From the IMG/VR virus record IMGVR_UViG_3300042731_005626, positions 1 through 21,658 of that record: a DNA stretch of 21,658 nt; one strand, 5' to 3'. The notes beneath the pieces are model-generated. The model did not search any database. It was given only the letters and a program-made list of their open reading frames with translations, and was not told where the DNA came from. The DNA comes from a virus. Made by a program: the position numbers and the translations under genes. Shown in pieces: positions 3,828 through 19,926 of this stretch (position 1 is the first letter of the stretch; each line of letters begins with the position of its first letter).

Positions 3828-3850
3828 AAGGCCATCTAATAGATGGCCTT
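3828..3850 (-). terminator. Terminator of the long leftward operon
   Basis: Read on the minus strand, a perfect 10-bp stem (AAGGCCATCT / AGATGGCCTT) with a 3-base loop is followed by a run of ten or more T. On the plus strand no T-run follows, so it acts leftward. The stop codon of the 35-residue ORF at 3849 lies inside the stem. Confidence 0.9.
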
Positions 3851-3956
3851 AACAGTCTAAAAAAAATTCAAACAGTTGACAAATTTTCCAGATTACTATT
3901 ATAAACAATGTAACTGGAAAAAATATAATCGCTAATAAAATTAATATCGCTTTCAT
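3849..3956 (-). CDS. 35-residue single-pass membrane microprotein
   Basis: This small reading frame begins MKAILILLAIIFFPVTLF and continues hydrophobic to about residue 22 (FIIVI), then WKICQ and an aromatic, acidic end. It is essentially one membrane helix with a short tail. Its ATG overlaps the TAA of the preceding gene (TAATG), and AGGAG lies 11 bases upstream within that gene, which suggests coupled translation. The stop is inside the operon terminator. It is short, so it could be spurious, but the start signal and membrane pattern are good. A second 35-residue membrane ORF occurs in the same operon at 6169-6276. Confidence 0.6.
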   Translation of the reverse strand: MKAILILLAIIFFPVTLFIIVIWKICQLFEFFLDC

Positions 3957-4468
3957 TATAATATTTTCTCCTTCACTTCTGCTATTTTAGCAAATATACT
4001 AGTTTTCCCTGTAAGTCTCATTAATTCTTTATAAAATGAATCCAGTTTATCATCATTAAAACCCATCGGGTTCCTTACCTGGAAACTTTCTTCTGATTTA
4101 TTCTCTAGTTTATTTGTGAGTGAGTATTTCTCACAAATCTTAAAATCCTTTATGTAAATTACCTCATTGTGTTTTAATGGTTTCTTTTTTTCAAATGGTG
4201 CATCATAATCTAAATTATCTACCATTTCAGTCCAGGAAAATTCTATTTCCTGTCCTTCCAAAAGATATATATAATTATAAATATCATGTATTATATATTC
4301 TTTCATTTTTTGACTATCATATTCATATGATAGCCAATCATATAATAAAGTCCTTATTTCCCTTGATGTCATTGATTTAATTTCTAAGTCATCCTTACCT
4401 TTTATAAACTTATTTAATTCTTGTGCACAAGTAACTAGAGTATCTTTAGATATCTTGTTTAATAACAT
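3956..4468 (-). CDS. Unrecognised protein of the leftward operon (170 aa)
   Basis: I do not recognise this 170-residue protein. It is mixed helical and charged, with no signal peptide or membrane segment. The middle holds a Tyr/Ile-rich stretch (about residues 57-72, EYIIHDIYNYIYLLEG), followed by FSWTEMVDNLDYD and a basic KKKPLKHNEVIYIKDFKIC. The C-terminus (DDKLDSFYKELMRLTGKTSIFAKIAEVKEKIL) looks helical. GGGGAAATAACAA precedes the ATG. It is the penultimate gene of the operon and is followed by the overlapping microprotein. One copy of the 55-bp hairpin repeat lies directly upstream. Confidence 0.75.
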   Translation of the reverse strand: MLLNKISKDTLVTCAQELNKFIKGKDDLEIKSMTSREIRTLLYDWLSYEYDSQKMKEYIIHDIYNYIYLLEGQEIEFSWTEMVDNLDYDAPFEKKKPLKHNEVIYIKDFKICEKYSLTNKLENKSEESFQVRNPMGFNDDKLDSFYKELMRLTGKTSIFAKIAEVKEKIL

Positions 4469-4498
4469 TTGTTATTTCCCCTTTTTATTTTTATTTTT

Positions 4499-4553
4499 CT
4501 ATTAATATAGAAATGCTTATAAGGCGATTTTCACGCCAAATAAACTAATATTT
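4499..4553 (-). repeat. 55-bp intergenic hairpin repeat, copy 1
   Basis: The hairpin is at 4515-4545: outer 6-bp and inner 4-bp stems separated by a small symmetrical internal loop, and a 7-base loop (TGAAAAT on the coding strand). It differs from copy 2 (4842-4896) at three positions, all in the stems and all keeping pairing: one G-C to A-T compensatory pair, and one G-U to G-C change. Confidence 0.85.
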
Positions 4554-4809
4554 AATCATGCTTTAATTCTTTAATACCTACTAAACCCCATGTATAATAA
4601 CTATCGTTATATTCAAAATTATCTCCTATCAATTCAGTTTGAAACTCTTCTTCTTCTTCTTCATTATCACTCTCAATTTGATTAATTTTTTTCATGAAAA
4701 TTAATCTTGCCTCTTTTTCAGATTTAGTAATTTTAATTATAATTGGTTCTAAATCATTACTTCTGGGTTTGTCCTTATCAAATTCTACCTTATAAACCAT
4801 ATATAACAT
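4552..4809 (-). CDS. Small acidic unrecognised protein (85 aa)
   Basis: This short protein has a beta-type N-terminus (MLYMVYKVEFDKD), a central segment PIIIKITKSEKEARLIFMKK, a run of Glu (NEEEEEEFQTE) and an aromatic C-terminus (NDSYYTWGLVGIKEL). I do not recognise the family. I place the start at 4809 because GGAG then lies 11 bases upstream, close to the spacing used throughout this operon. An in-frame ATG at 4818 would leave only 2 bases. Its stop codon sits at the end of the first 55-bp hairpin repeat, and the second copy lies directly upstream, so the gene is bracketed by the two copies. Confidence 0.7.
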   Translation of the reverse strand: MLYMVYKVEFDKDKPRSNDLEPIIIKITKSEKEARLIFMKKINQIESDNEEEEEEFQTELIGDNFEYNDSYYTWGLVGIKELKHD

Positions 4810-4841
4810 CTTTTTCATTTCTCCTTTTAATTTTTATTTTC

Positions 4842-4896
4842 CTATTAATATAGAAATGCTTATAAGGCAATTTTCATGCCAAATAAGCTAATATTT
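4842..4896 (-). repeat. 55-bp intergenic hairpin repeat, copy 2
   Basis: The hairpin is at 4858-4888 (GCTTAT / ATAAGC outer stem, GGCA / TGCC inner stem). It has the same position relative to the neighbouring genes as copy 1: it begins at the stop of the upstream gene and ends before the ribosome binding site of the next. Confidence 0.85.
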
Positions 4897-5324
4897 TATT
4901 TGTCTAGCACCATATCACATAAATCATTATATGCCTGTATATAATAATGATTTTTGCCTACATCTTTATATTCGTTTAAATCTTTCTTATAGTCTATTAT
5001 CTTAAAACAAATTTCTTCAAATTCTATTTGGTCGATTTCAACATTAACAGTCAGATAATAATTTCTTAAATTCTTTACTATTGAAGTATCAAAAAGATTT
5101 AAAGTATAGTTATGTGCTAGATTAAACATAGACAATTTAGTATCCTCTTGTTGCTTTTTATCACCTGTCAATACTAGTTTCATATCTTCTGTTACTTCAA
5201 ATAGTTTCTTATGTTTATAATAACTATGAAGTTTATCATAATAATGCTTGTAATTAGATTCCAAAATTGCACACTCATTATAAATTTTGAAGTAATTTTC
5301 TCCTGTTAATTTTATTTTACCCAT
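4896..5324 (-). CDS. Unrecognised helical protein (142 aa)
   Basis: This 142-residue protein is rich in Tyr, Lys, Asn and Leu, with no signal or membrane segment. The N-terminal half is probably helical and aromatic (ENYFKIYNECAILES, then YYDKLHSYYKHKKLFEV). The C-terminal half has alternating hydrophobic and acidic residues (EIDQIEFEEICFKIIDYKK) and ends in a helix-like YNDLCDMVLDK. I cannot assign a family. The start follows GGAGAATAAAAAATA, the standard leader of this operon. It is a small soluble early protein by context; the role is unknown. Confidence 0.75.
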   Translation of the reverse strand: MGKIKLTGENYFKIYNECAILESNYKHYYDKLHSYYKHKKLFEVTEDMKLVLTGDKKQQEDTKLSMFNLAHNYTLNLFDTSIVKNLRNYYLTVNVEIDQIEFEEICFKIIDYKKDLNEYKDVGKNHYYIQAYNDLCDMVLDK

Positions 5325-5353
5325 TATTTTTTATTCTCCTTTTTGTTTAATCT

Positions 5354-5400
5354 ATGGATAATTATCCATGAAATAACCTAGTAGGCTTTAACACCTACTA
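5354..5400 (-). promoter_or_regulatory. Intergenic hairpin cassette A
   Basis: The large stem (5379-5400) pairs TAGTAGG with CCTACTA, plus a G-U pair, around GTTAAA (coding strand), and it includes the TAG stop at 5398-5400. A perfect 16-bp palindrome, ATGGATAATTATCCAT (5354-5369), takes the place of the AGTCC dyad of other cassettes. Confidence 0.8.
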
Positions 5401-5733
5401 AGCTAATAAATTAAACTGTTTGTCAAAATCTTTATCAACTAAATTAATTAATTTAAATTCCAGTTTCTTTAATTGCCTTAAATCATATGGTTTACTAGTT
5501 TCAATTTTAAAGCTAAAATTAAGTCTATTTAACAAATTATTAATTGATTCTAGTATTTTATAGTATTGATATATTTCTTTTAATTCTACGCTTAATTTTA
5601 CCCTTGATTCATAAATTAAAGCTAATAAAGAGTTTGACTTAAAATTAATAATAGAACTATTTAAAACCATTTGTATATTAGTTTTATCAAGTTCTATTAT
5701 GGTTAGAATTTCTAATATTATTTCTAATCTCAT
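5398..5733 (-). CDS. Unrecognised helical protein (111 aa)
   Basis: This 111-residue protein is strongly hydrophobic-helical in heptad style, rich in Leu, Ile and Asn. Examples are LEIILEILTIIELDKTNIQM, LLALIYESRVKLSVELKEIY and YYKILESINNLLNRL. It has charged residues throughout and no clear membrane segment. It looks like an all-alpha, possibly coiled-coil protein. The ATG follows AAGAAGGTGTTTTATA, a different ribosome-binding leader from the hairpin-preceded genes. It lies only 14 bases after the gene at 5748, with no hairpin between. Function unknown. Confidence 0.7.
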   Translation of the reverse strand: MRLEIILEILTIIELDKTNIQMVLNSSIINFKSNSLLALIYESRVKLSVELKEIYQYYKILESINNLLNRLNFSFKIETSKPYDLRQLKKLEFKLINLVDKDFDKQFNLLA

Positions 5734-5747
5734 TATAAAACACCTTC

Positions 5748-5963
5748 TTATATTTTATAATTTAAATCCATTGTACATTTAGCATGTAAATGATTTATAT
5801 CACTATCTAATAGGATAAAATTAGTAAACCTTAAATCATAGTTTACTATTAAATCATTATCATTATTTCTTAATGATAAGATATGTTTAGATAATGAAAA
5901 TCTTATATTAGGATAATTATTCTCAAAATATTCTAATATGTCTTTATAGCTATTGAATAACAT
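5748..5963 (-). CDS. Small unrecognised protein (71 aa)
   Basis: This 71-residue protein has an N-terminal aromatic/acidic helix (FNSYKDILEYFENNYP), then short beta-like segments (IRFSLSKHILSLRN, DLIVNYDLRFTNFILLDSD) and a final HLHAKCTMDLNYK. I do not recognise a family. GGAGTATAAATC precedes the ATG. It sits 3 bases after the stop of the 65-residue membrane gene and 14 bases before the next start, inside a compact four-gene block (5398-6276) that has hairpin cassettes only at its two ends. Confidence 0.65.
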   Translation of the reverse strand: MLFNSYKDILEYFENNYPNIRFSLSKHILSLRNNDNDLIVNYDLRFTNFILLDSDINHLHAKCTMDLNYKI

Positions 5964-5966
5964 GAT

Positions 5967-6164
5967 TTATACTCCTTTCAATATAATTATTACTAATAAT
6001 ATTGGTATACCTATGATATTTAATAGTGCATACACATTGATAATATCAAATACAACTAATAAAATTTTATTATTTATATCATTTTTTAAATATTTTAAAA
6101 TTTTATAAATTAATAAATATATTATGAAAGTTATTATTGATTTAAAAAATAATTCATTATCCAT
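5967..6164 (-). CDS. Small two-helix membrane protein (65 aa)
   Basis: This 65-residue protein is very hydrophobic: a first segment around residues 7-25 (FKSIITFIIYLLIYKILKYL), a short polar turn (KNDINNK), then a second long segment (residues 32-62, ILLVVFDIINVYALLNIIGI and on). It is probably an integral membrane protein with two or three passes. GGAGACTTTAAAATA precedes the ATG. Directly upstream lies another tiny membrane ORF (6169-6276). The pair may act together in the envelope, for example as a holin-like or exclusion pair; that is only a possibility, and nothing in the context points to lysis. Confidence 0.7.
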   Translation of the reverse strand: MDNELFFKSIITFIIYLLIYKILKYLKNDINNKILLVVFDIINVYALLNIIGIPILLVIIILKGV

Positions 6165-6168
6165 TATT

Positions 6169-6276
6169 TTAAAGTCTCCTTTTCATTTTATTTATTAATA
6201 TGATAAATGTAGGTACTGTAATACATACAAATATCATGAAACATATGTTTCTAAATAATTCTACTTCATTTTTCAT
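6169..6276 (-). CDS. 35-residue single-pass membrane microprotein
   Basis: This short reading frame starts MKNEVELFRN, continues as one hydrophobic helix (about residues 11-28, ICFMIFVCITVPTFIILI) and ends NKMKRRL, a positively charged cap suggesting a cytoplasmic C-terminus. The ATG has the operon's standard GGAGAATAAAAAA leader, and hairpin cassette B lies upstream. Its last codons overlap the ribosome binding site of the next gene (start 6164), so translation is probably coupled. It has Cys residues in the membrane segment and the same length as the microprotein at 3849, without clear sequence similarity. Confidence 0.65.
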   Translation of the reverse strand: MKNEVELFRNICFMIFVCITVPTFIILINKMKRRL

Positions 6277-6308
6277 TTTTTTATTCTCCTTTTCTTTTGT
6301 ACTTAAAA

Positions 6309-6338
6309 ATCCTTGTAAACTTTGATATTCACAAGGAT
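6309..6338 (-). promoter_or_regulatory. Intergenic hairpin cassette B
   Basis: A 12-bp stem, ATCCTTGTGAAT / GTTTACAAGGAT on the coding strand with two wobble pairs, closes the loop ATCAAA. The stem is nearly the same as in cassette I. There is no AGTCC dyad here. Confidence 0.8.
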
Positions 6339-6344
6339 AAAATT

Positions 6345-6656
6345 TTAAAAATCTTTATTATAATTATCTAAAATATGACTTATTTTAAATGTATAATTTA
6401 CTGCTATGTATATTATATATTTAACATGATTAAAGTCTTCTTTATACTCATCCCTGAAATAGTGATGTTTATGATGATGTTCTCTTACTATTAGAACATT
6501 ATCACTTTGATACATGAGTCTATTGTCAATAAACTCACACTCACCAAATTCTTGTAAATTTAGTTGTGGCATATCTTCTTTACTTTCTACAATCACAATA
6601 TTATCTATTGTGATATCTTCTAATGATTTTAATATTTCTTTTAATTTAATTTTCAT
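6345..6656 (-). CDS. Unrecognised protein with a histidine cluster (103 aa)
   Basis: This 103-residue protein begins MKIKLKEILKSLEDITI and then reads as beta segments (NIVIVESKED, DNVLIVRE). At about residues 59-65 it has a striking EHHHKHHYFRDEY cluster that could bind metal. The C-terminal region (HVKYIIYIAVNYTFKISHI) alternates aromatic and hydrophobic residues. I see no signal peptide and do not recognise the family. The standard GGAGAATAAAAAATA leader precedes the ATG. It is flanked by hairpin cassettes C upstream and B downstream. Confidence 0.7.
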   Translation of the reverse strand: MKIKLKEILKSLEDITIDNIVIVESKEDMPQLNLQEFGECEFIDNRLMYQSDNVLIVREHHHKHHYFRDEYKEDFNHVKYIIYIAVNYTFKISHILDNYNKDF

Positions 6657-6680
6657 TATTTTTTATTCTCCTTTTTTTTA

Positions 6681-6731
6681 AGTCCTTTTAAGGACTGATA
6701 AAAGATTACTGCAATGTGACTTACAGTAACC
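6681..6731 (-). promoter_or_regulatory. Intergenic hairpin cassette C
   Basis: The large stem is at 6704-6731: 11 pairs including two wobbles, loop GTCACA on the coding strand, followed by TTTT. The second dyad AGTCCTTTTAAGGACT (6681-6696) lies just upstream of the ribosome binding site. Confidence 0.9.
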
Positions 6732-6740
6732 TTAGTTACA

Positions 6741-7535
6741 TTAGTATTTTAATGCTAATATTTCATCTCGAAAATAAATACTAAAATTCTTTCTACCATG
6801 TCTAATTACTTTTGTATGGTTGTATTGCATAGTTGACAATACATTCATTAAACTATTGGTGCTTTGTTTTAAGTCAGTTCTACCTATCTTTACAAACTTT
6901 TTATTGCTCAAGAATTGTAATGATAACAAGTATTCTTGTATCATTTCATAATAATTATCTTTATGATCTTGCATAAAAGACAAAACTTCTAAAATATACT
7001 TAATATTAAACCAGTCACTATCATGTAAAAAGTGATTGTTTACTATTTTTAAGTTTTCTAACTCAAAGCTAAAATGAGTTTTCAACTCATTATAATTTTG
7101 ATAACAATTAATCTTATTATCAAATATGTTCTCAAAATCATATTCAAACTTTGACATTAATGAGTTCTTATATGCTACAAAAATGTCATTGAATAACATG
7201 TCATATTCGTTTTTTATTTCAAAATTATAATTATTAATATCAATTTTATATTTAGACAATATCCATTCAAATCTATTGATGAATACTTTTAATGTACTAT
7301 CAGTTAAAAGCGGTTTGTCTAAAGACTTATTTAAGTCTTCTCTTAGATCACTAACTATATAATCTCTTATAAGCTCTTTAAGACTAAGTCTATCAGGTTT
7401 TGACTCAACATAAAACTTAGTTAAATCAATATCTAAATAATCAACCATTATACAGTCACTTAATCGTCGTCCTAAATGTCTACCATTTTTTAGACCTATA
7501 GTTACATTGTTTGTTAGTTTTAATTCATTACTCAT
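6741..7535 (-). CDS. Largest unrecognised protein of the leftward operon (264 aa)
   Basis: This 264-residue protein has no signal or membrane segment. The N-terminus (KLTNNVTIGLKNGRHLGRRL) is basic and beta-like. The centre (about residues 50-200) is rich in Asn, Phe, Tyr and Leu and looks helical (LSLKELIRDYIVSDLRED, FINRFEWILSKYKIDINNYN). The C-terminus is basic (HTKVIRHGRKNFSIYFRDEI). The alternation of aromatic and charged residues suggests a globular all-alpha fold with a possible nucleic-acid-binding end. I recognise no catalytic motif. GGGAGAATAAAAATT precedes the ATG, and cassettes D and C flank the gene. Confidence 0.75.
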   Translation of the reverse strand: MSNELKLTNNVTIGLKNGRHLGRRLSDCIMVDYLDIDLTKFYVESKPDRLSLKELIRDYIVSDLREDLNKSLDKPLLTDSTLKVFINRFEWILSKYKIDINNYNFEIKNEYDMLFNDIFVAYKNSLMSKFEYDFENIFDNKINCYQNYNELKTHFSFELENLKIVNNHFLHDSDWFNIKYILEVLSFMQDHKDNYYEMIQEYLLSLQFLSNKKFVKIGRTDLKQSTNSLMNVLSTMQYNHTKVIRHGRKNFSIYFRDEILALKY

Positions 7536-7582
7536 AATTTTTATTCTCCCTTTTTATTTTTATTTTTTTTTAATACAATCCA

Positions 7583-7606
7583 GTACCACAAAATGACTTG
7601 TGATAC
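7583..7606 (-). promoter_or_regulatory. Intergenic hairpin cassette D
   Basis: A 9-bp stem, GTATCACAA / TTGTGGTAC on the coding strand with one wobble, closes the loop GTCATT, the most divergent loop of the set. No AGTCC dyad is present. Confidence 0.75.
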
Positions 7607-7615
7607 CAGGAAAAC

Positions 7616-8005
7616 TTAATGATATTTCATTATATATTCACAACGATTTTTAAGATAATTAGCTAAATAATATTCAAGTTCACAAAATGTTAAATCATAA
7701 TTTTTAAATGTTTTTAAAAATTCATATGGAATATATATCCATGATTTAACATATAATTTCTTGCCATTTATAGAATTTTTGTATTCTATTGCATACATTG
7801 CCTTTAAATATTTACTAGTATTATTAGTAGTATCATATTCTAGTTGATTCGTAGGGATTACTTGAGTATGATGTAAATGGTTTTTGTATGCTTTATACCC
7901 ATTAGATATAAAAGTATCTTTGTACCGTTTTATGTTATTACCATCTGACATGTCAAATAATAATATTGTTTTCTTTGTTCTTAAATTATCTATTGTTTTT
8001 TTCAT
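7616..8005 (-). CDS. Unrecognised protein (129 aa)
   Basis: This 129-residue protein has a basic N-terminus with a beta segment and small loop (TKKTILLFDMSDGNNIKRYK), then KAYKNHLHHTQVIP, a Thr/Asn-rich turn, and alternating beta strands (KYLKAMYAIEYKNS, KKLYVKSWIYIPYEFL). The C-terminal helix is Tyr/Cys-containing (FCELEYYLANYLKNRC). It looks like a soluble mixed alpha/beta protein. I do not recognise a family or catalytic motif. The leader is GGAGAATAAAAAAC before the ATG. Cassettes E (upstream) and D (downstream) flank it. Confidence 0.75.
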   Translation of the reverse strand: MKKTIDNLRTKKTILLFDMSDGNNIKRYKDTFISNGYKAYKNHLHHTQVIPTNQLEYDTTNNTSKYLKAMYAIEYKNSINGKKLYVKSWIYIPYEFLKTFKNYDLTFCELEYYLANYLKNRCEYIMKYH

Positions 8006-8030
8006 GTTTTTTATTCTCCTTTTTGTTTTA

Positions 8031-8080
8031 AGTCCTATGGACTATTAGTAAAAAGTAATCACGCTTTGACACGTGATTAC
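8031..8080 (-). promoter_or_regulatory. Intergenic hairpin cassette E
   Basis: A perfect 9-bp stem, GTAATCACG / CGTGATTAC (8055-8080), encloses TGTCAAAG and is followed by TTTTT on the coding strand. The second dyad AGTCC-ATA-GGACT lies at 8031-8043. Confidence 0.9.
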
Positions 8081-8102
8081 CTAAGTTTTTTATGAATTTT
8101 TA

Positions 8103-8429
8103 TTAATCAGTTTCGATTAATAAAAACCCTTCATCATTTAGAAAATATTTTAAACATTGTAGACCTTTGTCTTCTATCTGTTTGCCGTTTTTATAGTGAC
8201 CTAAAAATACAAAATCTTCTTTCAATCCATTGACTAATCGATATCTCATAATACCTATTGTATTTATCTGGTACATATATTTTGTATCATTAATAATATG
8301 ATATTTATCAAATAAGCAATTAATATAATCATATATATTACTTTCTAATGTACTATTATCCATGTATTCAGAAAATACCTTCGATAACTTTATAATTCTT
8401 TTGTTTGTTAAACTATCAATTTTATTCAT
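8103..8429 (-). CDS. Unrecognised protein (108 aa)
   Basis: This 108-residue protein has an N-terminal helical half (LTNKRIIKLSKVFSEYMDN, then LESNIYDYINCLFDKYHIIN) and a C-terminal half of short beta strands: INTIGIMRYRLVNGLKEDFV, FLGHYKNGKQIEDKGLQCL, and YFLNDEGFLLIETD at the end. It has no membrane segment and no family I recognise. It uses the standard GGAGAATAAAAAAC leader. Cassette F lies upstream (8481-8504) and cassette E directly downstream of its stop. Confidence 0.75.
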   Translation of the reverse strand: MNKIDSLTNKRIIKLSKVFSEYMDNSTLESNIYDYINCLFDKYHIINDTKYMYQINTIGIMRYRLVNGLKEDFVFLGHYKNGKQIEDKGLQCLKYFLNDEGFLLIETD

Positions 8430-8480
8430 GTTTTTTATTCTCCTTAAAATTTTATTTTTTTCCCTTTATTTAGGAATACC

Positions 8481-8504
8481 CTAGTAAACTTTGAAATTTA
8501 CTAG
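8481..8504 (-). promoter_or_regulatory. Intergenic hairpin cassette F
   Basis: An 8-bp stem, CTAGTAAA / TTTACTAG, extended by one wobble pair, closes the loop TTCAAA on the coding strand. No AGTCC dyad is present. Confidence 0.8.
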
Positions 8505-8515
8505 AGTTAAATTAA

Positions 8516-8689
8516 TTACATGTTTGTTATGAAAATATCTTCATTGTCGATATTTTCGTAAATATCCTTTAAATACCAATCTGAATAATTCTCATTATCC
8601 AGTTCGATCAATTGGTCACCTGAAAAAAATACCAGGTATTTATATTCTTTCATAGTAAATATTTGTTTTTGCATTTTGTTTAATCTCAT
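8516..8689 (-). CDS. Small acidic unrecognised protein (57 aa)
   Basis: This 57-residue reading frame is supported by the operon's standard start signal (GGAGAATAAAAAAC before ATG) and by hairpin cassettes on both sides (G upstream, F downstream). The sequence starts MRLNKMQKQIFTMKEYKYLV, then FFSGDQLIELDNE, and ends with an acidic, aromatic part (WYLKDIYENIDNEDIFITNM). It has one beta-type segment and a strongly negative C-terminal half. There is no membrane segment or known domain. An acidic small early phage protein could mimic nucleic acid or bind a host protein; that is speculation. Confidence 0.7.
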   Translation of the reverse strand: MRLNKMQKQIFTMKEYKYLVFFSGDQLIELDNENYSDWYLKDIYENIDNEDIFITNM

Positions 8690-8711
8690 GTTTTTTATTC
8701 TCCTTTTTTTA

Positions 8712-8763
8712 AGTCCTAGTAAGGACTGATTAAAAGGTAATCACAATGTGACTTGTGACTACC
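8712..8763 (-). promoter_or_regulatory. Intergenic hairpin cassette G
   Basis: An 11-bp stem with one wobble (8736-8763, TCACAA / TTGTGA core) closes the loop GTCACA and is followed by TTTT on the coding strand. The second dyad AGTCCT-TACT-AGGACT lies at 8712-8727. Confidence 0.9.
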
Positions 8764-8772
8764 ATAATTAAA

Positions 8773-9087
8773 TTATCTTTCTTCTTCATCCCTGTCTAAT
8801 TGATATATTCCATCATCATCTAATATATTTAATTCAATCTCTAAAGTACTTAATAAAGGTCTTAAAGCGTGTGTTATTGTACATGCTTCATGTAGTTTAT
8901 TTTCGTAATACTCTTTCAATATAAACCTTTTACCTTCATGGTCTTTAATTTCTTTTAAACACTTTTTAATTTCAAAAAAAGCCTTCCTATAAGTTTCGAA
9001 ACTTTCTTTATAAGACTTCAATAGTCTTAAATATCCTTTGTTGTCTATTGTTTTCTCTTCTTTTTTAATTGTTTTTGGTATTCTCAT
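8773..9087 (-). CDS. Unrecognised charged helical protein (104 aa)
   Basis: This 104-residue protein is dominated by charged residues. The N-terminus is basic (MRIPKTIKKEEKTIDNKGYL). A long helical stretch follows at about residues 20-80 (LLKSYKESFETYRKAFFEIK, CLKEIKDHEGKRFILKEYYE), with heptad-like spacing suggesting a coiled coil. The C-terminus is acidic (ILDDDGIYQLDRDEEER). No membrane segment or known motif. The standard GGAGAATAAAAATT leader precedes the ATG. Cassettes H (upstream) and G (downstream) flank it. Confidence 0.75.
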   Translation of the reverse strand: MRIPKTIKKEEKTIDNKGYLRLLKSYKESFETYRKAFFEIKKCLKEIKDHEGKRFILKEYYENKLHEACTITHALRPLLSTLEIELNILDDDGIYQLDRDEEER

Positions 9088-9108
9088 AATTTTTATTCTC
9101 CTTTTTTA

Positions 9109-9160
9109 AGTCCTAGTAAGGACTGATTAAAAGGTAATATAAATTTGACTTTATATTACC
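9109..9160 (-). promoter_or_regulatory. Intergenic hairpin cassette H
   Basis: The clearest copy: a perfect 11-bp stem, GGTAATATAAA / TTTATATTACC (9133-9160), loop GTCAAA on the coding strand, followed by TTTT. The second dyad AGTCCT-TACT-AGGACT lies at 9109-9124. Confidence 0.92.
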
Positions 9161-9168
9161 CTAGTTTC

Positions 9169-9651
9169 CTAAACTGCTAATTTCTTTTTACTATCAGCTT
9201 TATTATTGATTTTTTGACTTCCATAAGTTGACCTTATTTGTTCCATTGACCACTCTTTTCTATTTCTAGAATAGCACCACTCAGGCCTATAATACCATTG
9301 TTTCTTTTTTGAAGCCCATTTGAAATTTAATGATTTCAATAAATCTTTAATTGGTTTAGTATTTCCTGATATCCATAGATACCAATTACATACTTCGATT
9401 TCAATGTCGTCAAATTTTATCAGTTTAACTATGATATCTTTGAATAACTCAGCTTCATATACTTGACTATCTGCTTTTTTAGTTGATTTAGTATCTTTTA
9501 AGTCCTTAATAGCCATGTCATATTGACTATTAATTTCTTTGATAATACTATCATCAACATTTTTATTGATATCTGGATGATATTGTTTTACCAATTTCCT
9601 ATAAATGTTTTTTACTTCGTCAATGTTTGTACAATCTTTAAAATAATTCAT
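9169..9651 (-). CDS. J-domain (DnaJ-like) protein
   Basis: This 160-residue protein has an N-terminal J-domain of about 50 residues with the diagnostic HPD at residues 25-27 in YRKLVKQYHPDIN, preceded by a helix (IDEVKNIYRKL) and followed by IKEINSQYDMAIKDL. J-domains stimulate the ATPase of Hsp70 (DnaK). The C-terminal part (about residues 70-145) contains IVKLIKFDDIEIEV, WYLWISGNT, and LLKSLNFKWASKKKQWYYRP, a tryptophan-rich module I associate with J-proteins of Firmicutes and their phages. The frame is open to 9717, but the ATG at 9651 has the exact GGAGAATAAAAATT leader, and the longer frame would run through hairpin cassette I. It may redirect host DnaK during replication or assembly (inference). 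Confidence 0.85.
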   Translation of the reverse strand: MNYFKDCTNIDEVKNIYRKLVKQYHPDINKNVDDSIIKEINSQYDMAIKDLKDTKSTKKADSQVYEAELFKDIIVKLIKFDDIEIEVCNWYLWISGNTKPIKDLLKSLNFKWASKKKQWYYRPEWCYSRNRKEWSMEQIRSTYGSQKINNKADSKKKLAV

Positions 9652-9674
9652 AATTTTTATTCTCCTTTTTTTTA

Positions 9675-9723
9675 AGTCACTTGGACTAATAATATCCTCG
9701 TAAACTTTAACATTCACAAGGAT
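9675..9723 (-). promoter_or_regulatory. Intergenic hairpin cassette I
   Basis: A 12-bp stem including wobbles (9694-9723, ATCCTTGTGAAT / GTTTACGAGGAT on the coding strand) closes the loop GTTAAA. A weaker second dyad, AGTCCAAGTGACT, lies at 9675-9687. Confidence 0.85.
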
Positions 9724-9729
9724 AAAAAT

Positions 9730-10029
9730 TTACTGTAATTTTAATTCAATCTCATTATCTAATTGAATCATATCATCTAAAAATTGAGCACTATACTTTC
9801 TTTCTAGTGTTGATAAGTATTCATAAATACCTATCAATATTTTTTTATTCCAATTGGGATTCAAATACATATGTAAATCCCTTATTTGAGTTATATCTCT
9901 AGTTTTCTTAGTTGCTATTTTTTCAATAGTAACTAAAATTTCTTCTAATTCTTTGTCATCCCCATAAAAATTAGAATGAATGCTTTCAATAGCATAATAT
10001 AAATTTTTATTAATATCTTTTTTTGTCAT
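9730..10029 (-). CDS. Unrecognised helical protein (99 aa)
   Basis: This 99-residue protein is predicted mostly helical: NKNLYYAIESIHSNFYGDD, ELEEILVTIEKIATKKTRD, LYPxW-like turn (HMYLNPNWNKK), then ILIGIYEYLSTLERKYSAQF and an acidic/hydrophobic end (LDDMIQLDNEIELKLQ). It has no signal, membrane segment or known motif. The standard GGAGAATAAAAATC leader precedes the ATG. It lies immediately upstream of the J-domain gene and downstream of cassette J. A partner role with the J-protein is possible from position alone. Confidence 0.75.
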   Translation of the reverse strand: MTKKDINKNLYYAIESIHSNFYGDDKELEEILVTIEKIATKKTRDITQIRDLHMYLNPNWNKKILIGIYEYLSTLERKYSAQFLDDMIQLDNEIELKLQ

Positions 10030-10052
10030 GATTTTTATTCTCCTTTGTTTTA

Positions 10053-10103
10053 AGTCACTTGGACTATTAGTAAATAAGTATTCACAATTTGACTTGTGAA
10101 TAC
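10053..10103 (-). promoter_or_regulatory. Intergenic hairpin cassette J
   Basis: A perfect 10-bp stem, GTATTCACAA / TTGTGAATAC (10078-10103), closes the loop GTCAAA on the coding strand. The second dyad AGTCCAAGTGACT lies at 10053-10065, as in cassette I. Confidence 0.9.
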
Positions 10104-10109
10104 CTGAAA

Positions 10110-10334
10110 TTATACTATTATTAATTTTGGCTTTTTACCTGTTAATTTATTTGTATGCTCTATTGATTCTAATACAGCATTATAATACATAGATTCATGG
10201 AAACTTAGGTATTTATTATTTCTGCCGTAAATTACCTTTATTGTATTTTTGCCAAATATCATCAATACAGGTATTTTTTTAATTCTATATCTTAATATAA
10301 TCGCTTTTTGTATCATTCTTTTAAATTTAATCAT
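10110..10334 (-). CDS. Small basic unrecognised protein, first gene of the leftward operon (74 aa)
   Basis: This 74-residue protein is strongly basic. The N-terminal segment (MIKFKRMIQKAIILRYRIKK) could bind nucleic acid or membrane. Next come short beta strands (IPVLMIFGKNTIKVIYGRNN) and a helix (SMYYNAVLESIEHTNKLTG), and the end is KKPKLIIV. I do not recognise a family. The start signal GGAGATTAAAAACT almost matches that of the first rightward gene at 11991 (GGAGATTAAAAATT), so both operons begin with the same kind of leader. It lies about 435 bases downstream of the leftward promoter, behind a long structured leader. Confidence 0.75.
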   Translation of the reverse strand: MIKFKRMIQKAIILRYRIKKIPVLMIFGKNTIKVIYGRNNKYLSFHESMYYNAVLESIEHTNKLTGKKPKLIIV

Positions 10335-10355
10335 AGTTTTTAATCTCCTTTTTTA

Positions 10356-10402
10356 AGTCCGTAGACTATTATTTAATAGGTATAAAGGAATCGAACCTTT
10401 AT
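10356..10402 (-). promoter_or_regulatory. Leader hairpin cassette K with a T-arm-like loop
   Basis: On the coding strand a stem ATAAAGG / CCTTTAT (10382-10402) closes the 7-base loop TTCGATT, which looks like a tRNA T-arm. The AGTC / GACT dyad lies at 10356-10367 before the first ribosome binding site. It is in the cassette position but has a different loop. Confidence 0.65.
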
Positions 10403-10517
10403 TAAAAACACCAGTTACCACGATTTTTTTACATCCTTATGTCTTTTGAGAGTTATCAAAAACCAAAAAAACCCGTTTACCCTCGATTTTAATGTATTTT
10501 AGGAGAAAAATAAAAAT

Positions 10518-10706
10518 TTGCTTCTACTAAATAAGTTTGATAGACATTGCCTGAAATGGCTTGAATTTGCCTTGTCATCCATAGACTATGATGACTTGAG
10601 TTTATTTAGTACTTACGATTTATATGTTTACTGTATTTTGCTAGATATTCACCAGGTACATGACCTGTCTTGTGGTTTACGCCCCTCAGTCGCAGCCTAC
10701 AAGTAA
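10518..10706 (+). CDS. Doubtful small ORF (62 aa, TTG start)
   Basis: This frame starts with TTG, 12 bases after AGGAG, in a leader that resembles those of real genes here (AGGAGAAAAATAAAAAT). The product would be 62 residues, LLNKFDRHCLKWLEFALSSI at the start and DLSCGLRPSVAAYK at the end, with no recognised domain. Against it: there is no good rightward promoter, it lies antisense to the expected leader of the leftward operon, and the same bases fold into several strong stems (see 10525-10703). The segment is richer in G+C than its surroundings. It could be a structured RNA or leader rather than a gene. Confidence 0.3.
   Translation: MLLLNKFDRHCLKWLEFALSSIDYDDLSLFSTYDLYVYCILLDIHQVHDLSCGLRPSVAAYK
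10525..10703. ncRNA. Structured GC-richer island, possible leader RNA
   Basis: A perfect 10-bp long-range stem (TACTAAATAA at 10525-10534 with TTATTTAGTA at 10602-10611) encloses a GTCATC / GATGAC hairpin (10574-10595) and a GCC / GGC hairpin (10549-10560). Further on are CAGGT / ACCTG (10653-10667) and CTTGTGGTT with AGCC-T-ACAAG (10669-10703). One pair in the last stem is U-G only if read on the plus strand and mismatched on the minus. The strand is therefore unresolved: the leftward promoter would transcribe it as minus. Confidence 0.45.
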
Positions 10707-10777
10707 AGAGTAGATTTATTATGACTCAATATTTAATTTTCAATGTTCATTTTGTAAGTATCATGTTGACAATTATT

Positions 10778-10806
10778 ATTATATTATACTTTTTACAGAA
10801 TGTCAA
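10778..10806 (-). promoter_or_regulatory. Leftward early promoter PL (consensus)
   Basis: On the minus strand this is TTGACA (10801-10806), a 17-base spacer, and TATAAT (10778-10783): a full consensus. It would start a transcript near 10771 with a leader of about 435 bases before the first leftward gene. Confidence 0.85.
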
Positions 10807-10836
10807 CACTTTTTTTGAAAAAATGTAAAAAGTATA
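10785..10836. promoter_or_regulatory. Operator dyad over PL
   Basis: Perfect 13-bp arms, TATACTTTTTACA (10785-10797) and TGTAAAAAGTATA (10824-10836), are 26 bases apart. One arm lies between -35 and -10, the other upstream of -35. The PR module has the same geometry. Confidence 0.8.
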
Positions 10837-11540
10837 ACAAATTAGTATTAATCTATGTTTTGAGGTTTATTTTTTCCAATTTTCTAAATTTATTTTTATT
10901 TTTTTTAAGATTTTTTTTGAAAATAAAAAAATAAAACGGATAACCCTTGATATAACAGACTCATAAGGTTTATTTACATTATTTTTTTCTTTTTAGAATT
11001 TTTTAAAAACGTGTTTTGTGTGTAAAATATACGCTTTTTACACTACTTTGAAAAACCTGGAATCCATTGGTATCAGAAGCTTAGAATGTATTCTAACACT
11101 ATTTACACTCTTTTTATCCCATATAGAAAAATAAAAATAAAAATAAAAATAAAATATATAAAAATATTAAATAAGATAATTATTATTATTATTATTTTAA
11201 ATCTGGTGGCGGTATGTAGAAAAAAAAAAGTGTAAAACGTGTGAAAATACTTTCCAGACTCCTGATACTAAGGAATTCCAGGTTTTTTAAAAAAGTGTAC
11301 AAAACACGGTTTTAAAATTTCAAACACGTTTTTTTTTAACGATATAAAAATAAAAAAAAGGTAATAAACACATTAAATCTAGTAATACCAACGTTTGTCA
11401 GGTTTATTTTTTTTATTTTTTGTTTTTTTCGAAAAAAATAAGAAAAAGATAAAAAATAATTTACAGTTATTTGCAAATTTTCCAATTGAACAATTTATAA
11501 TTTTTTCTTTCATTATATAGATAGGAAAAAAAATTAAAAT

Positions 11541-11624
11541 CTCAGGAACTTTTTTTGACCTCAGGAACTTTTTTTGACCTCAGGAACTTTAGAAATTTAA
11601 AAACTTCAGAAACTTCAGAAACTT
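11541..11624. repeat. Iteron-like tandem repeats
   Basis: Two exact 19-bp copies of CTCAGGAACTTTTTTTGAC (11541-11559, 11560-11578) and a partial third (11579-11590) are followed by a shorter related 10-bp repeat, ACTTCAGAAA, in about two and a half copies up to 11624. Confidence 0.85.
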
Positions 11625-11733
11625 AAATATTCTGTAGAATTTTAGAATTTAATGAAATTATCCCCCGCGACTCGTTTTTACTGTTTGTCAAGGTATTTCC
11701 CAAGATTTCTGGAATTTTCTTTAGTTTTAATCG

Positions 11734-11750
11734 AGCAACATATTGTTGCT
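11734..11750. promoter_or_regulatory. Short dyad AGCAACA / TGTTGCT
   Basis: Perfect 7-bp arms with a 3-base spacer (TAT). The size and symmetry suit a dimeric regulator; no partner is identified. Confidence 0.5.
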
Positions 11751-11763
11751 TATATTTTTAAAA

Positions 11764-11798
11764 TGACATTTATCATAAATAATTCAAGATAAATGTCA
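11764..11798. promoter_or_regulatory. 11-bp dyad TGACATTTATC / GATAAATGTCA
   Basis: Perfect arms (11764-11774, 11788-11798) separated by 13 bases, so the half-sites are 24 bases centre to centre. It lies about 120 bases upstream of PR. Probable operator or initiator site. Confidence 0.6.
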
Positions 11799-11853
11799 AT
11801 ACTCTAAAAAAAGCAGGTGACCATTATTAAAATCCCAAAATATTTCTTAGCTT

Positions 11854-11868
11854 CCTGGGTTTCCCAGG
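11854..11868. promoter_or_regulatory. Short GC-rich stem CCTGGG / CCCAGG
   Basis: A perfect 6-bp stem with a TTT loop and no T-run after it, so it is not a standard terminator. It lies upstream of PR. Confidence 0.5.
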
Positions 11869-11887
11869 TATTTCCAGATATTAGATT

Positions 11888-11937
11888 ATATTTTTTACAT
11901 TATTTCAAAAAAAGTATTGACATAGTGTAAAAAATAT
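11888..11937. promoter_or_regulatory. Operator dyad over PR
   Basis: Perfect 12-bp arms, ATATTTTTTACA (11888-11899) and TGTAAAAAATAT (11926-11937), 26 bases apart: the same arm sequence, spacing and promoter placement as at PL. Confidence 0.8.
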
Positions 11938-11945
11938 TATAGAAT
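11917..11945 (+). promoter_or_regulatory. Rightward early promoter PR
   Basis: TTGACA (11917-11922), a 17-base spacer and TAGAAT (11940-11945). The 59-base module around it matches the PL module at all but about 8-9 positions, in mirror orientation. Confidence 0.85.
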
Positions 11946-11990
11946 AGTATTAGAAAGTAAATAAATTAAAATTAAAGGAGATTAAAAATT

Positions 11991-12359
11991 ATGAAAAAAT
12001 CAGTATTAGCAATAATCATTAGTGTAGTAGTATTAGTAGGGGCTGTATATACAGCCGTATATATAGGCGGTTTTGATATAGCCCATAAGGTAGACGATAC
12101 TGTTTACCATGACAGCGATTTTAATAACATTGAGGACGATTTGTACTTACATACTTTAATGTTCCATGACTTTAAAGTAATGATACCTAGCACAGATACA
12201 TGGTGTATTATACGCGAATGTAGTACACCTACAGAGGAAGTAGTACATGTGTATAGTATCAATGTCTTAGCTTCCTATGTTATACCAATAGGCTTTATAC
12301 TCTTAGGTATACTAGGGTTACTTAGGAAGTACCTGGATTACAAGGAAGCTAAGAAATAA
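11991..12359 (+). CDS. Two-pass membrane protein, first gene of the rightward early operon (122 aa)
   Basis: This 122-residue protein starts with a membrane segment (residues 4-25, VLAIIISVVVLVGAVYTAVY). An extracytoplasmic acidic domain follows (about 27-85) with an HDSDFNNIEDDLYLH stretch and three Cys-containing positions (TWCIIREC). A second membrane segment (about 90-110, ASYVIPIGFILLGILGLL) leads to a basic tail (RKYLDYKEAKK). The topology is therefore probably both ends inside. GGAGATTAAAAATT precedes the ATG, and PR lies about 45 bases upstream. I do not recognise a family. An early phage membrane protein with an external loop could act in exclusion or membrane remodelling (inference). 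Confidence 0.8.
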   Translation: MKKSVLAIIISVVVLVGAVYTAVYIGGFDIAHKVDDTVYHDSDFNNIEDDLYLHTLMFHDFKVMIPSTDTWCIIRECSTPTEEVVHVYSINVLASYVIPIGFILLGILGLLRKYLDYKEAKK

Positions 12360-12412
12360 AAATAAAAATAAAATAAAATAATTTTGTAACACAGATGTAA
12401 TATTTTGATATG

Positions 12413-12545
12413 TATGTATGTTTTGGAAAACTTTGGAATCGTAAAAATTCTGGAGTTTTCCAAAAGCCTGGGGATGCCTCCCTGCAAAAAATCTACGCAG
12501 TATTTTTTAAATAAGTAGCTTCCAAAGTTTTCCAGGACATACATA
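12413..12545 (+). other. 26-bp long-range RNA stem with a competing inner partner
   Basis: The arms 12413-12438 and 12520-12545 pair over 26 positions (24 Watson-Crick plus two that are U-G when read as plus-strand RNA). Within the 81-base interior, AGTTTTCCAAAA (12454-12465) is the exact complement of TTTTGGAAAACT in the left arm (12421-12432), offering an alternative 12-bp hairpin. A weak CTGC / GCAG hairpin followed by TATTTTTT (12483-12508) also lies inside. It could be an attenuator-like switch or a small inverted-repeat element with TA at each end. The surrounding 12360-12643 holds no other gene. Confidence 0.65.
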
Positions 12546-12564
12546 AGAACCCTGAGAATCTTAG

Positions 12565-12626
12565 GAACCAAAAGTATTCAGTGGGTAAAAAGAACCAAAA
12601 GTATTCAGTAGGTAAAAAGAACCAAA
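12565..12626 (+). repeat. 27-bp tandem repeat upstream of the gene at 12644
   Basis: Two copies (12565-12591, 12592-12618; GAACCAAAAGTATTCAGT followed by a short A-rich end) differ at one position. A partial third (12619-12626) runs into the GGAGG ribosome binding site. Confidence 0.85.
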
Positions 12627-12643
12627 GGAGGTGTGAAAAAAAG

Positions 12644-12859
12644 ATGTTAATATTTTTATTAATGAGTATTATATTGATACAATGCAGTGTAGTTGCATTT
12701 TTAGTATATTACATAAAAATAATACAAGACAAATTGGATGAGCAAAGACTTATAAATGAATTAAAAATAATAAATGGTAATCGTGAAGAAGAGTTCACAA
12801 GTTTTCAAGAGTATTCAAAATCATTTGAGGAAGGGGATAAAACAGATGGGATTTTATAA
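12644..12859 (+). CDS. Small membrane-anchored coiled-coil protein (71 aa)
   Basis: This 71-residue protein has one N-terminal membrane helix (residues 1-24, MLIFLLMSIILIQCSVVAFL onward). A probable coiled coil follows (IKIIQDKLDEQRLINELKII), then an acidic tail (NREEEFTSFQEYSKSFEEGD). I start at 12644 because GGAGG (12627-12631) precedes that ATG. The frame extends to a GTG at 12581, but that would put the 27-bp repeats in the coding region and has no ribosome binding site. The 3' end overlaps the next gene by 14 bases. Its layout resembles small phage membrane proteins of the Rz-like or exclusion type, but no specific function can be assigned. Confidence 0.65.
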   Translation: MLIFLLMSIILIQCSVVAFLVYYIKIIQDKLDEQRLINELKIINGNREEEFTSFQEYSKSFEEGDKTDGIL

Positions 12860-13406
12860 ATTTTATTTTATAGTATGTGATGGAGGTCATGAATATCAAA
12901 GGATATTAGACAAATATAAGTTAATGAATGATGATTGTAAATATGTAAACACAAGTATTAGTAAGAAATATTTATATAATAGGTATAAGAATTTAAGACA
13001 CACAAAGTATCAAGTAACATATAAGAAAGGGATACAGATAATACCAGATTTTTGGTTCTGGTGTAATGAATATGAAATTGAGAAAAACTATATTAAAGAA
13101 AAAAAGAAAACAAACGAATTATTTGATGAAATAAGATGGAAACAATATAATACTAGGTTACATAAAATAGTAGGTACTTATTATAAAGATAATCTGATGT
13201 TTAAATATGAAATGGCAAAAACATTCAAATTATTCAGGGAATTAAAGGTTATTTATGATGTAGGAAATACATTTAGGCTTATAGAGTTTTTATTATCTGA
13301 AAGAGATAATGGAAGGGAATATAATGTATATGAAGCAATTAAAGAATACAATAAAATATTATCTAAAATTATTCCAAAAAAGGAAGAAGAAAAAATAGCA
13401 ACATGA
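12846..13406 (+). CDS. Unrecognised basic protein (186 aa)
   Basis: This 186-residue protein starts MGFYKFYFIVCDGGHEYQRI. It is rich in Lys, Tyr, Asn and aromatic residues, and contains IIPDFWFWCNEYEIEKNYIK (about residues 67-85), a charged helical stretch with EIRWKQYNTRLHKI, and a basic end (KIIPKKEEEKIAT). No membrane segment or known motif. The frame opens at 12774, but AGGAAGGGG lies about 10 bases before the ATG at 12846, and that start leaves a typical 14-base overlap with the upstream gene. It belongs to the rightward early operon; the role is unknown. Confidence 0.7.
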   Translation: MGFYKFYFIVCDGGHEYQRILDKYKLMNDDCKYVNTSISKKYLYNRYKNLRHTKYQVTYKKGIQIIPDFWFWCNEYEIEKNYIKEKKKTNELFDEIRWKQYNTRLHKIVGTYYKDNLMFKYEMAKTFKLFRELKVIYDVGNTFRLIEFLLSERDNGREYNVYEAIKEYNKILSKIIPKKEEEKIAT

Positions 13407-13422
13407 GAGGAAGGTAATGAAA

Positions 13423-13590
13423 ATGAGAGAGAAAAAATATTCATTAAATATATGTCCAGTATGCAATAAAGATTGTTATGAAATAGAAGAAGGTAATGAT
13501 TATGCTTGTGTTGACCCTAATTGCGAATTTGCAATAGGATTCAAAGCATACATGGATAAATTAATTAATGAAGAAGATTGTGATATATAA
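13423..13590 (+). CDS. Small zinc-ribbon protein (55 aa)
   Basis: This 55-residue reading frame starts MREKKYSLNICPVCNKDCYE and continues with YACVDPNCEF, giving a CPVC knuckle and a second CVDPNC pair about 15 residues later. This is a likely four-Cys zinc ribbon, with a short helical tail (YMDKLINEEDCDI). AGGAAGG lies 8 bases before the ATG at 13423. An in-frame ATG two codons upstream (13417) is too close to that site. It is the last gene of the rightward early operon, 16 bases after the previous stop and directly before a terminator. Small zinc ribbons in phages often bind nucleic acid or RNA polymerase; the target here is unknown. Confidence 0.75.
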   Translation: MREKKYSLNICPVCNKDCYEIEEGNDYACVDPNCEFAIGFKAYMDKLINEEDCDI

Positions 13591-13595
13591 AAAGA

Positions 13596-13626
13596 AAATC
13601 CTCTTGAAATATTAGAGGATTTTTTA
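13596..13626 (+). terminator. Terminator of the rightward early operon
   Basis: A 9-bp stem, AAATCCTCT / AGAGGATTT, with a 9-base loop, followed by a run of T, begins 6 bases after the zinc-ribbon stop. Confidence 0.9.
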
Positions 13627-13673
13627 ATTGAATTGGACTGTTCAAATTTAAAAATGTTTATATCAATTATATG

Positions 13674-13698
13674 TTACATTAATATTATAATAATGTAA
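13674..13698. promoter_or_regulatory. Dyad TTACATTA / TAATGTAA upstream of a promoter
   Basis: Perfect 8-bp arms (13674-13681, 13691-13698) lie directly upstream of the extended -10 at 13705. Possible operator or activator site. Confidence 0.5.
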
Positions 13699-13713
13699 AT
13701 ACCATGATATAAT
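13685..13713 (+). promoter_or_regulatory. Extended -10 promoter for 13753-14407
   Basis: TATAAT (13708-13713) with TGA just before it (TGnTATAAT). No good -35 at 17 bases (TTATAA), as expected for an extended -10 promoter. Confidence 0.6.
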
Positions 13714-13752
13714 AAAATCAGATATTAAAAAAAGGTTTGGAGGTCATATGAT

Positions 13753-14076
13753 ATGGGTATGAGAGGTATGAAGAGGATAATAGATATAAACGAATTATAT
13801 GAACAAACCTGGTTAAAATATAAAATGTATTCAAGTACAAATTATAGATTATATTGTCCTAATGGTATGTATATTATATTGAATGAGAAAGAAAATTATC
13901 TTGATGGTAAGTTAAATTACATATTACAAATTTATATTGAACCAGGTTTTAAGATAAAGCAATATACTAATGTAGATATAGATAAAAAGAGATTAAAGTA
14001 TATCAGTATAGAAGAATACATAGACAATATGTTCAAAAAAGGAGAGGATATATATGGACTTAAGCGTGCTAAGTGA
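13753..14076 (+). CDS. Unrecognised protein (107 aa)
   Basis: This 107-residue protein starts with a basic segment (MGMRGMKRIIDINELYEQTW). Alternating short beta strands follow (YRLYCPNGMYIILNEKEN, KLNYILQIYIEPGFKIKQ, then NVDIDKKRLKYISIEEYI) and a final basic helix (NMFKKGEDIYGLKRAK). It looks like a small globular beta-rich protein without membrane segment. GGAGG lies about 9 bases before the ATG. The 3' end overlaps the next gene by 23 bases. With its partner at 14054 it forms a two-gene unit between an upstream promoter and a terminator, just before the packaging genes. Function unknown. Confidence 0.75.
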   Translation: MGMRGMKRIIDINELYEQTWLKYKMYSSTNYRLYCPNGMYIILNEKENYLDGKLNYILQIYIEPGFKIKQYTNVDIDKKRLKYISIEEYIDNMFKKGEDIYGLKRAK

Positions 14077-14407
14077 TGTTACAGTTAGCAATTGGATTTA
14101 TGATATAAATACCTATAAATTGAAAAGACTGACATATTGGATTCATAAGATACAGATATCTAATAATTGGCATCTAACTAATTTTAATTATAATTTGACC
14201 AACATTGACCTTAAAACAACAGATATTGAAATAGCTGAAAAAAGGTCAATGGTTATAATGAATAGCAAGATTAATATCATTTCAAATGCGATAACTAAAT
14301 TAAATATATTTTCAAGAAGGTTATCAAATAAATCTATAGAATTAACACCTGAATTAAGTAAAACTGTTATAGATTTTACATCTAAATTAAGTAATTATAA
14401 TATTTAA
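14054..14407 (+). CDS. Unrecognised protein (117 aa)
   Basis: This 117-residue protein is rich in Asn, Ile, Thr and Ser: VSNWIYDINTYKLKRLTYWI, NWHLTNFNYNLTNIDLKTTD, and a helical second half with amphipathic stretches (KINIISNAITKLNIFSRRL, ELTPELSKTVIDFTSKLSN). GGAGAGG precedes the ATG inside the end of the upstream gene, so translation is probably coupled. No known motif, membrane segment or signal. It sits directly before a terminator and the packaging module, where some phages carry an HNH nuclease or a head-packaging accessory gene; I see no nuclease motif here. Confidence 0.7.
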   Translation: MDLSVLSDVTVSNWIYDINTYKLKRLTYWIHKIQISNNWHLTNFNYNLTNIDLKTTDIEIAEKRSMVIMNSKINIISNAITKLNIFSRRLSNKSIELTPELSKTVIDFTSKLSNYNI

Positions 14408-14431
14408 TACAATAAAATAAGATAATTTATT

Positions 14432-14473
14432 AAAAAAGACTAAATTTTCTATAATATTTAAGTCTTTTTTTTG
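14432..14473 (+). terminator. Terminator after 14407
   Basis: A stem AAAAAAGACT / AGTCTTTTTT (with a further AAAT / ATTT inside) is followed by a run of T on the plus strand. The A/T arms make it usable in both directions. Confidence 0.85.
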
Positions 14474-14492
14474 TTTTTTTACGTTTTTTATG

Positions 14493-14521: not shown

Positions 14522-14561
14522 GAAATAAAAGCATTGTATAAAGCTATAAGGAGGTAATTTT

Positions 14562-16831: not shown

Positions 16832-16848
16832 AAAGGGGAGATTTATTA

Positions 16849-19925: not shown

Positions 19926-19926
19926 A

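Follow-up and report, generated by a model that had tools for sequence, protein, structure and literature searches.

Ten hairpins, A to J, separate the genes of a leftward operon in the viral DNA that we analyzed, positions 1 to 21,658 of IMG/VR record IMGVR_UViG_3300042731_005626 (21,658 nucleotides [nt]; hereafter the window, whose positions serve as coordinates throughout), and the sequence shows their structure, their position, and selection for their pairing on the mRNA strand. The explanation that we tentatively favor is that the hairpins may act as cis-acting RNA barriers or processing marks, letting each translation unit behave as an independent mRNA. Stem-loops at the boundaries of early phage genes are a known theme, of which this is a variant with unusually clear evidence at the RNA level. 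Repeated stem-loops near phage gene starts have been known mostly as conserved sequence, which leaves it ambiguous whether they act as DNA or as RNA, whereas the copies in the window are divergent enough for compensatory and G-U changes to indicate action as RNA. The ten natural variants form a series for testing how a phage splits one transcript into separately expressed units. The hairpins are the following.

10075..10106, minus strand: hairpin J, loop GUCAAA, A-U closing pair
9693..9724, minus strand: hairpin I, loop GUUAAA, U-G closing pair
9131..9162, minus strand: hairpin H, loop GUCAAA, A-U closing pair
8734..8765, minus strand: hairpin G, loop GUCACA, A-U closing pair
8477..8508, minus strand: hairpin F, loop UUCAAA, U-G closing pair
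8052..8083, minus strand: hairpin E, loop GUCAAA, U-G closing pair
7579..7610, minus strand: hairpin D, loop GUCAUU, A-U closing pair
6702..6733, minus strand: hairpin C, loop GUCACA, A-U closing pair
6308..6339, minus strand: hairpin B, loop AUCAAA, U-G closing pair
5374..5405, minus strand: hairpin A, loop GUUAAA, U-G closing pair; stem overlaps the stop codon of gene 5398-5733

All ten were found where a first-pass annotation of this DNA had placed them, with the loops that it had listed; the stems, which it had given as 7 to 12 base pairs (bp), measured 11 to 13 bp. Every normal-size gap between genes 4896 and 10334 holds a hairpin, and, as had also been noted, they are missing inside the compact four-gene block at 5398-6276, where the gaps are only 3 to 14 nt. 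Each cassette reads, in mRNA order, stop codon, hairpin 1 (the A to J element), AU-rich linker, a small hairpin 2 (in six cassettes), the leader AAGGAGAATAAAAA, and ATG. Hairpin 1 usually follows the stop codon by 4 to 9 nt (20 in E; overlapping in A), and in the junction scan it preceded the next ATG by 41 to 48 nt in eight copies, 32 in B, and 54 in A. The junctions were not selected for pairing, and the nine with a wholly intergenic hairpin scored above nearly all dinucleotide shuffles (P values of 0.005 to 0.01; 200 shuffles); for junction A, where the test was truncated because the stem overlaps the stop codon, the P value was 0.03.

The ten copies aligned gap-free in a 32-nt register, with a 12-bp stem and a 6-nt loop in every copy. 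In this fixed register, 119 of the 120 stem cells were paired, compared with 60% in column shuffles and 38 to 43% with slid partners, and RNAalifold, unaided, picked the identical structure. Changes had occurred on both sides in all 12 stem pairs, and 46 cells were doubly changed, counts that, for paralogs with a common ancestry, do not equal independent events. G-U pairs numbered 20 across the copies and A-C mismatches 0 (15 and 0 without the loop-closing pair); since each G-U pair is an A-C mismatch on the other strand, pairing has been kept on the mRNA-sense strand. Hairpins J and E are separated by three double changes and no single ones, with identical loops. In G and H, whose linker and hairpin 2 are identical, the stems show three double changes and two single ones. 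The proposal that the stems vary in sequence yet remain paired, through paired or wobble substitutions, was thereby borne out, and selection on coding-strand RNA structure, also proposed, is well supported by the covarying pairs, the G-U count, and compensatory changes in relatives (described below). The closing pair splits the copies into an A-U group (J, H, G, C, and D) and a U-G group (I, B, F, A, and E), and a model trained on either half recovered only one member of the other (J in one case and E in the other); the ten copies are two linked subsets and not one tight family.

The loop follows the consensus N-U-Y-A-N-N, with U2 and A4 invariant, C or U at position 3, and A at position 6 in nine copies out of ten; its identity is 0.76, versus 0.42 to 0.44 in the stem arms. 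A scan of the minus strand for hexaloop hairpins in which 11 or more of the 12 pairs form gave 25 sites (shuffles: mean, 7.5; maximum, 14), and an N-T-Y-A-N-N loop was present in exactly the ten junction hairpins and in none of the 15 other sites (shuffles: mean, 0.7; maximum, 3). Such a split would arise once in 3.3 million if the sites were independent, a figure that for paralogs is a guide only. U-turn loops follow the rule U-N-R, which U-Y-A fits. A pseudoknot or switch, in which the loop would pair with the leader or the region of hairpin 2, was rejected, as complementarity to a copy's own leader was no better than to other leaders.

Three features define the setting of the hairpins.

3956..10334, minus strand: leftward operon of about 16 small genes, most without known relatives
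10778..10806, minus strand: promoter TTGACA-17-TATAAT, matching the consensus at 12/12 positions
3828..3850, minus strand: intrinsic terminator with a T run

The promoter probably marks the start of the operon and the terminator, a strong one, its end. The operon region contains 78 promoter-like sites against 72.4 expected from shuffles, which is no excess, and the sole minus-strand site of at least 10/12 within 3956-10334 lies in a gene end (10145-10117). A single transcript of about 7 kb through all operon genes is the simplest reading; with one promoter and one strong terminator bracketing the operon and no excess of promoters, this long transcript would have to cross all ten hairpins. The hairpins were rejected as promoter cassettes because of this lack of excess, and as ordinary intrinsic terminators, which have a GC-rich stem with a U-tract right behind it, because, unlike the terminator at 3850-3828, they have no T run. 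The operon is likely to be early, because it is positioned opposite the structural genes. Among its genes, 9169-9651 is DnaJ-like (match to phrog_15863) and 6741-7535 is probably an ortholog of genes in two related phages introduced below.

The remaining parts of the cassettes are listed here.

10053..10065, minus strand: hairpin 2 of cassette J (AGTC..GACT), just upstream of the ribosome-binding site
9675..9687, minus strand: hairpin 2 of cassette I, same sequence as that of J
9109..9124, minus strand: hairpin 2 of cassette H, AGTCCTTACTAGGACT
8712..8727, minus strand: hairpin 2 of cassette G, identical to that of H
8031..8043, minus strand: hairpin 2 of cassette E, AGTCCATAGGACT
6681..6696, minus strand: hairpin 2 of cassette C, AGTCCTTAAAAGGACT
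10030..10052, minus strand: conserved leader with Shine-Dalgarno sequence, AAGGAGAATAAAAA, of cassette J, before the start codon; a repeat family with invariant alignment columns

Hairpin 2 is of the AGTC..GACT type in all six of these cassettes, and the leader also stands ahead of genes 9169, 8773, 8516, 8103, 7616, 6741, 6345, ~6168, and 4896. The cassettes are mosaic: the stem of I is 96% identical to that of B, its hairpin 2 is that of J (a shared run of 19 nt), and the stems of I and J are only 25% identical despite this common hairpin 2.

The arrangement has outlasted its sequence in related phages. Related terminases occur in twelve IMG/VR contigs, among them IMGVR_UViG_3300037297_000083, which is identical to the window over 7604-21658 and hence the same phage. 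The same leftward operon was recognized in IMGVR_UViG_3300028840_002373 (G012) and IMGVR_UViG_3300031379_000001 (G008) through the DnaJ-like gene, at 30 to 32% identity, and gene 6741, at 27% identity, probably marks it there as well. In both operons, hairpins of about 9 to 18 bp follow many stop codons, mostly within 4 to 20 nt, and at most such junctions they stand clearly above shuffles; their stems and loops are unrelated to those of the window, mostly A-rich sequence comes after the hairpin, and each phage has its own conserved leader. At one orthologous junction, TATGCTTTACTA..TAGTAAAGCATG in G012 and TATGGTTAACTA..TAGTTAACCATG in G008 differ by two compensatory double changes, and the next 12 bases are the same. 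The arrangement, then, is conserved and its sequence turns over, so that the architecture is wider than the sequence family. As a separate observation, repeated promoter-like sites overlapped by a dyad, TATTGACAT..ATGTTAATA, lie upstream of several early genes in the operons of G012 and G008 and not in the window; these dyads look like a repressor regulon.

The sequence family itself is narrow. DNA-pattern scans of IMG/VR and genome contigs with the leader and the hairpin found multiple copies solely in the same phage (two overlapping contigs). The family covariance model gave nothing convincing in the relatives (best score, 19.5 bits, versus 31 to 40 for the ten) or in half a megabase of other viral contigs (best score, 27.5 bits; E value, 0.009), no match in 200 genomes of one bacterial class was obtained, and in Rfam 15 nothing matched at the gathering threshold, nor did any hairpin match even at an E value of 10. 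The interpretation offered by the first-pass annotation therefore stands as regards selection on RNA structure and falls short as regards the matches between genes of other phages that it anticipated, which neither the pattern scans nor the covariance model returned. An 18-base core pattern led to one other site, at 8659-8690 (plus strand) of a viral contig from an isolate genome (L173), where a 14-bp perfect stem with the loop GTCAAA (36.9 bits) lies about 20 nt upstream of an ATG; it has the 18-nt core in common with hairpin J, and as a single copy found via its own core it is not independent evidence and may be due to chance. Enterococcus phage Efs 1-1-1 has the DnaJ-like gene (37%), and the region surrounding it is free of hairpins of the window family; elsewhere in this phage, intergenic hairpins with stems of 22 and 26 bp are found at 13907-14016 and 21088-21183.

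A posttranscriptional role in cis is indicated by the position of the elements between stop and start codons, by their fold and sense-strand pairing, and by the absence of features typical of terminators or promoters. As cis-acting RNA hairpins, the ten elements would belong to a single polycistronic mRNA, probably an early one, in which every hairpin marks where one translation unit, be it one gene or the four genes of the compact block, has its 3' end and where the following unit starts. An endonuclease might cut the AU-rich linker between hairpins 1 and 2, after which hairpin 1 would block 3'-to-5' exonucleases on the upstream message, and hairpin 2, with the strong A-rich Shine-Dalgarno leader, would shield and open the downstream message; the near-constant N-U-Y-A loop could form a compact U-turn-like turn that stabilizes or tags the hairpin. 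Cleavage, stabilization, and binding are here predicted from sequence. We place a barrier or processing function first because it explains the position after each unit, the skipped compact block, the free stem sequence, and the persistence in relatives. Several observations speak against it: a pure barrier needs no conserved loop, the loop is unconserved in the G012 and G008 operons, and a two-hairpin unit is not universal, as cassettes B and D have no hairpin 2 and A and F have a different one.

The constant loop is explained only by a reading that we rank second and consider possible but clearly less probable, in which an RNA-binding factor, from the phage or its host, binds the hairpins by reading N-U-Y-A and controls the translation of all downstream genes jointly, much as at the T4 gp43 operator hairpin. 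The contrast between loop and stem identity, the two invariant positions, and the confinement of this loop to junction hairpins agree with such a factor, whereas searches yielded no candidate protein, two related operons do without loop conservation, and the copies' shared ancestry accounts for part of the loop identity. In a more specific form, to which we give a somewhat smaller chance, a phage-encoded factor would recognize the U-turn hexaloop N-U-Y-A-N-N at all ten boundaries, making a posttranscriptional regulon within one operon, where stems would drift freely and nothing but the fold and the loop would be kept. The mosaic cassettes (I with the stem of B and the hairpin 2 of J; G and H with a common linker and hairpin 2 and not a common stem) fit a module kept mainly for gene shuffling by homologous recombination, as proposed for T4-type cassettes; this we regard as improbable, since a module driven by homology should not have its greatest divergence in the stems, as is the case here, since selection on RNA structure is needed to account for the paired changes and the G-U pairs, and since no other phage carrying these cassettes, in which exchange could be seen, turned up.

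An equally small chance attaches to a role in transcription, with the hairpins terminating weakly or causing pauses so that expression is graded from one operon gene to the next: under a loose pattern, 4 of the 10 count as minus-strand terminators, and several stems have a short T-rich stretch behind them, but there is no real U-tract (tails such as ATTTACTA and TTAATCAG, versus TTTTTTTTTTG at the true terminator of the operon), the hairpins of related phages mostly precede A-rich sequence, and no internal promoters would rescue downstream genes. That the palindromes act as DNA, whether as operators or as single-stranded hairpins for recombination or replication, is the least credible of these explanations and very improbable. 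The sequences are inverted repeats and single-stranded DNA would also tolerate a G-T pair; a double-stranded site, however, would not favor G-U over A-C by 20 to 0 and needs no compensatory change with free stem sequence, and the position of the hairpins tracks stops and starts.

Several known systems resemble the cassettes in part. T4-type PeSL cassettes between early genes consist of an early promoter and a terminator-like stem-loop; the window has the same intergenic stem-loops and mosaic exchange, but one promoter for the operon and none per cassette, and stems without a U-tract. The T4 parallel drawn by the first-pass annotation is thus of the right kind, mosaic intergenic stem-loops, and breaks down over the promoters, of which the window shows no excess. 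RNase III hairpins of T7 and Bacillus phage SP82 cut early mRNA into units. They too lie between early genes. Those sites are defined by cleavage, whereas the window hairpins, with their 12 bp and constant hexaloop, are known from sequence. Nearest in layout are SAS and ESAS, which have in common with the window phage a repeated Shine-Dalgarno leader and an upstream inverted repeat. In cluster K mycobacteriophages, SAS is a short repeat with a Shine-Dalgarno sequence that occurs at many nonstructural gene starts and almost always points the same way; about half of the copies have an inverted repeat immediately upstream. SAS is limited to one phage group, and ESAS repeats are conserved in sequence, contain SigA-like promoters, and were considered by the authors not to be supported as RNA pairings (PMC3203893, PMC11373665). 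SAS is the 13-bp GGGATAGGAGCCC and the window leader is AAGGAGAATAAAAA, so the leader is not an SAS by sequence; and unlike the conserved, promoter-bearing ESAS, the window stems are variable (identity, 0.42 to 0.44), covarying, G-U retaining, and promoter-free.

The T4 gp43 translational operator, a hairpin whose conserved loop is UAAC, lies about 40 nt ahead of the start codon and adjoins the ribosome-binding site (PMC3014915). It resembles the cassettes in its distance to the start, its conserved loop, and the adjoining ribosome-binding site, but concerns one gene and a known binding protein, as against ten genes and no known protein in the window. The T4 RegB nuclease cleaves at the consensus GG*AGRAYARAA (PMC3014915), and the leader segment GGAGAATAAAA, invariant in cassettes A to J, matches GGAGRAYARAA at every letter. 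The RegB family PF10715 was silent in four phage records, where the control was also silent and the window contig is incomplete. We treat the match as a lead only, suggested by sequence, since simpler explanations exist for an A-rich spacer after a Shine-Dalgarno sequence.

With regard to the host, the nearest terminase relatives among named phages are those of Bacillus and Weizmannia phages (37 to 38% identity), which would make a Bacillota host a guess at best; a terminase search of bacterial genomes gave no match.

Other elements were noted in and around the operon. A second type of hairpin, GGC[G/A]TGAAAAT[C/T]GCC (loop TGAAAAT), lies ahead of the operon's two last genes, in 89-nt intergenic repeats (4468-4556 and 4811-4899) that are 90% identical and have a second hairpin of their own; it shows one compensatory double change, from a G-C to an A-T pair. 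Before the first operon gene, at the hairpin 1 position, 10380-10402 (minus strand) reads AAAGG-TTCGATT-CCTTT, a perfect match to the tRNA T-arm consensus GTTCRANNC with an extended stem and no full tRNA. It may represent a mimic of a tRNA, a tRNA remnant, or the core of an attachment site, or it may have arisen by chance. A tRNA-like origin of the ten hairpins was rejected, as no tRNA was found and this T-arm-like hairpin scores 4.4 bits at best with the family model. The stretch of about 1.6 kb between the divergent operons (10335-11990) is free of convincing genes; it has many repeats as well as consensus promoters on each strand and is probably a regulatory and origin region. In the structural region, 19918-21453 (plus strand) encodes a protein with many DUF285 repeats (Mycoplasma-type).

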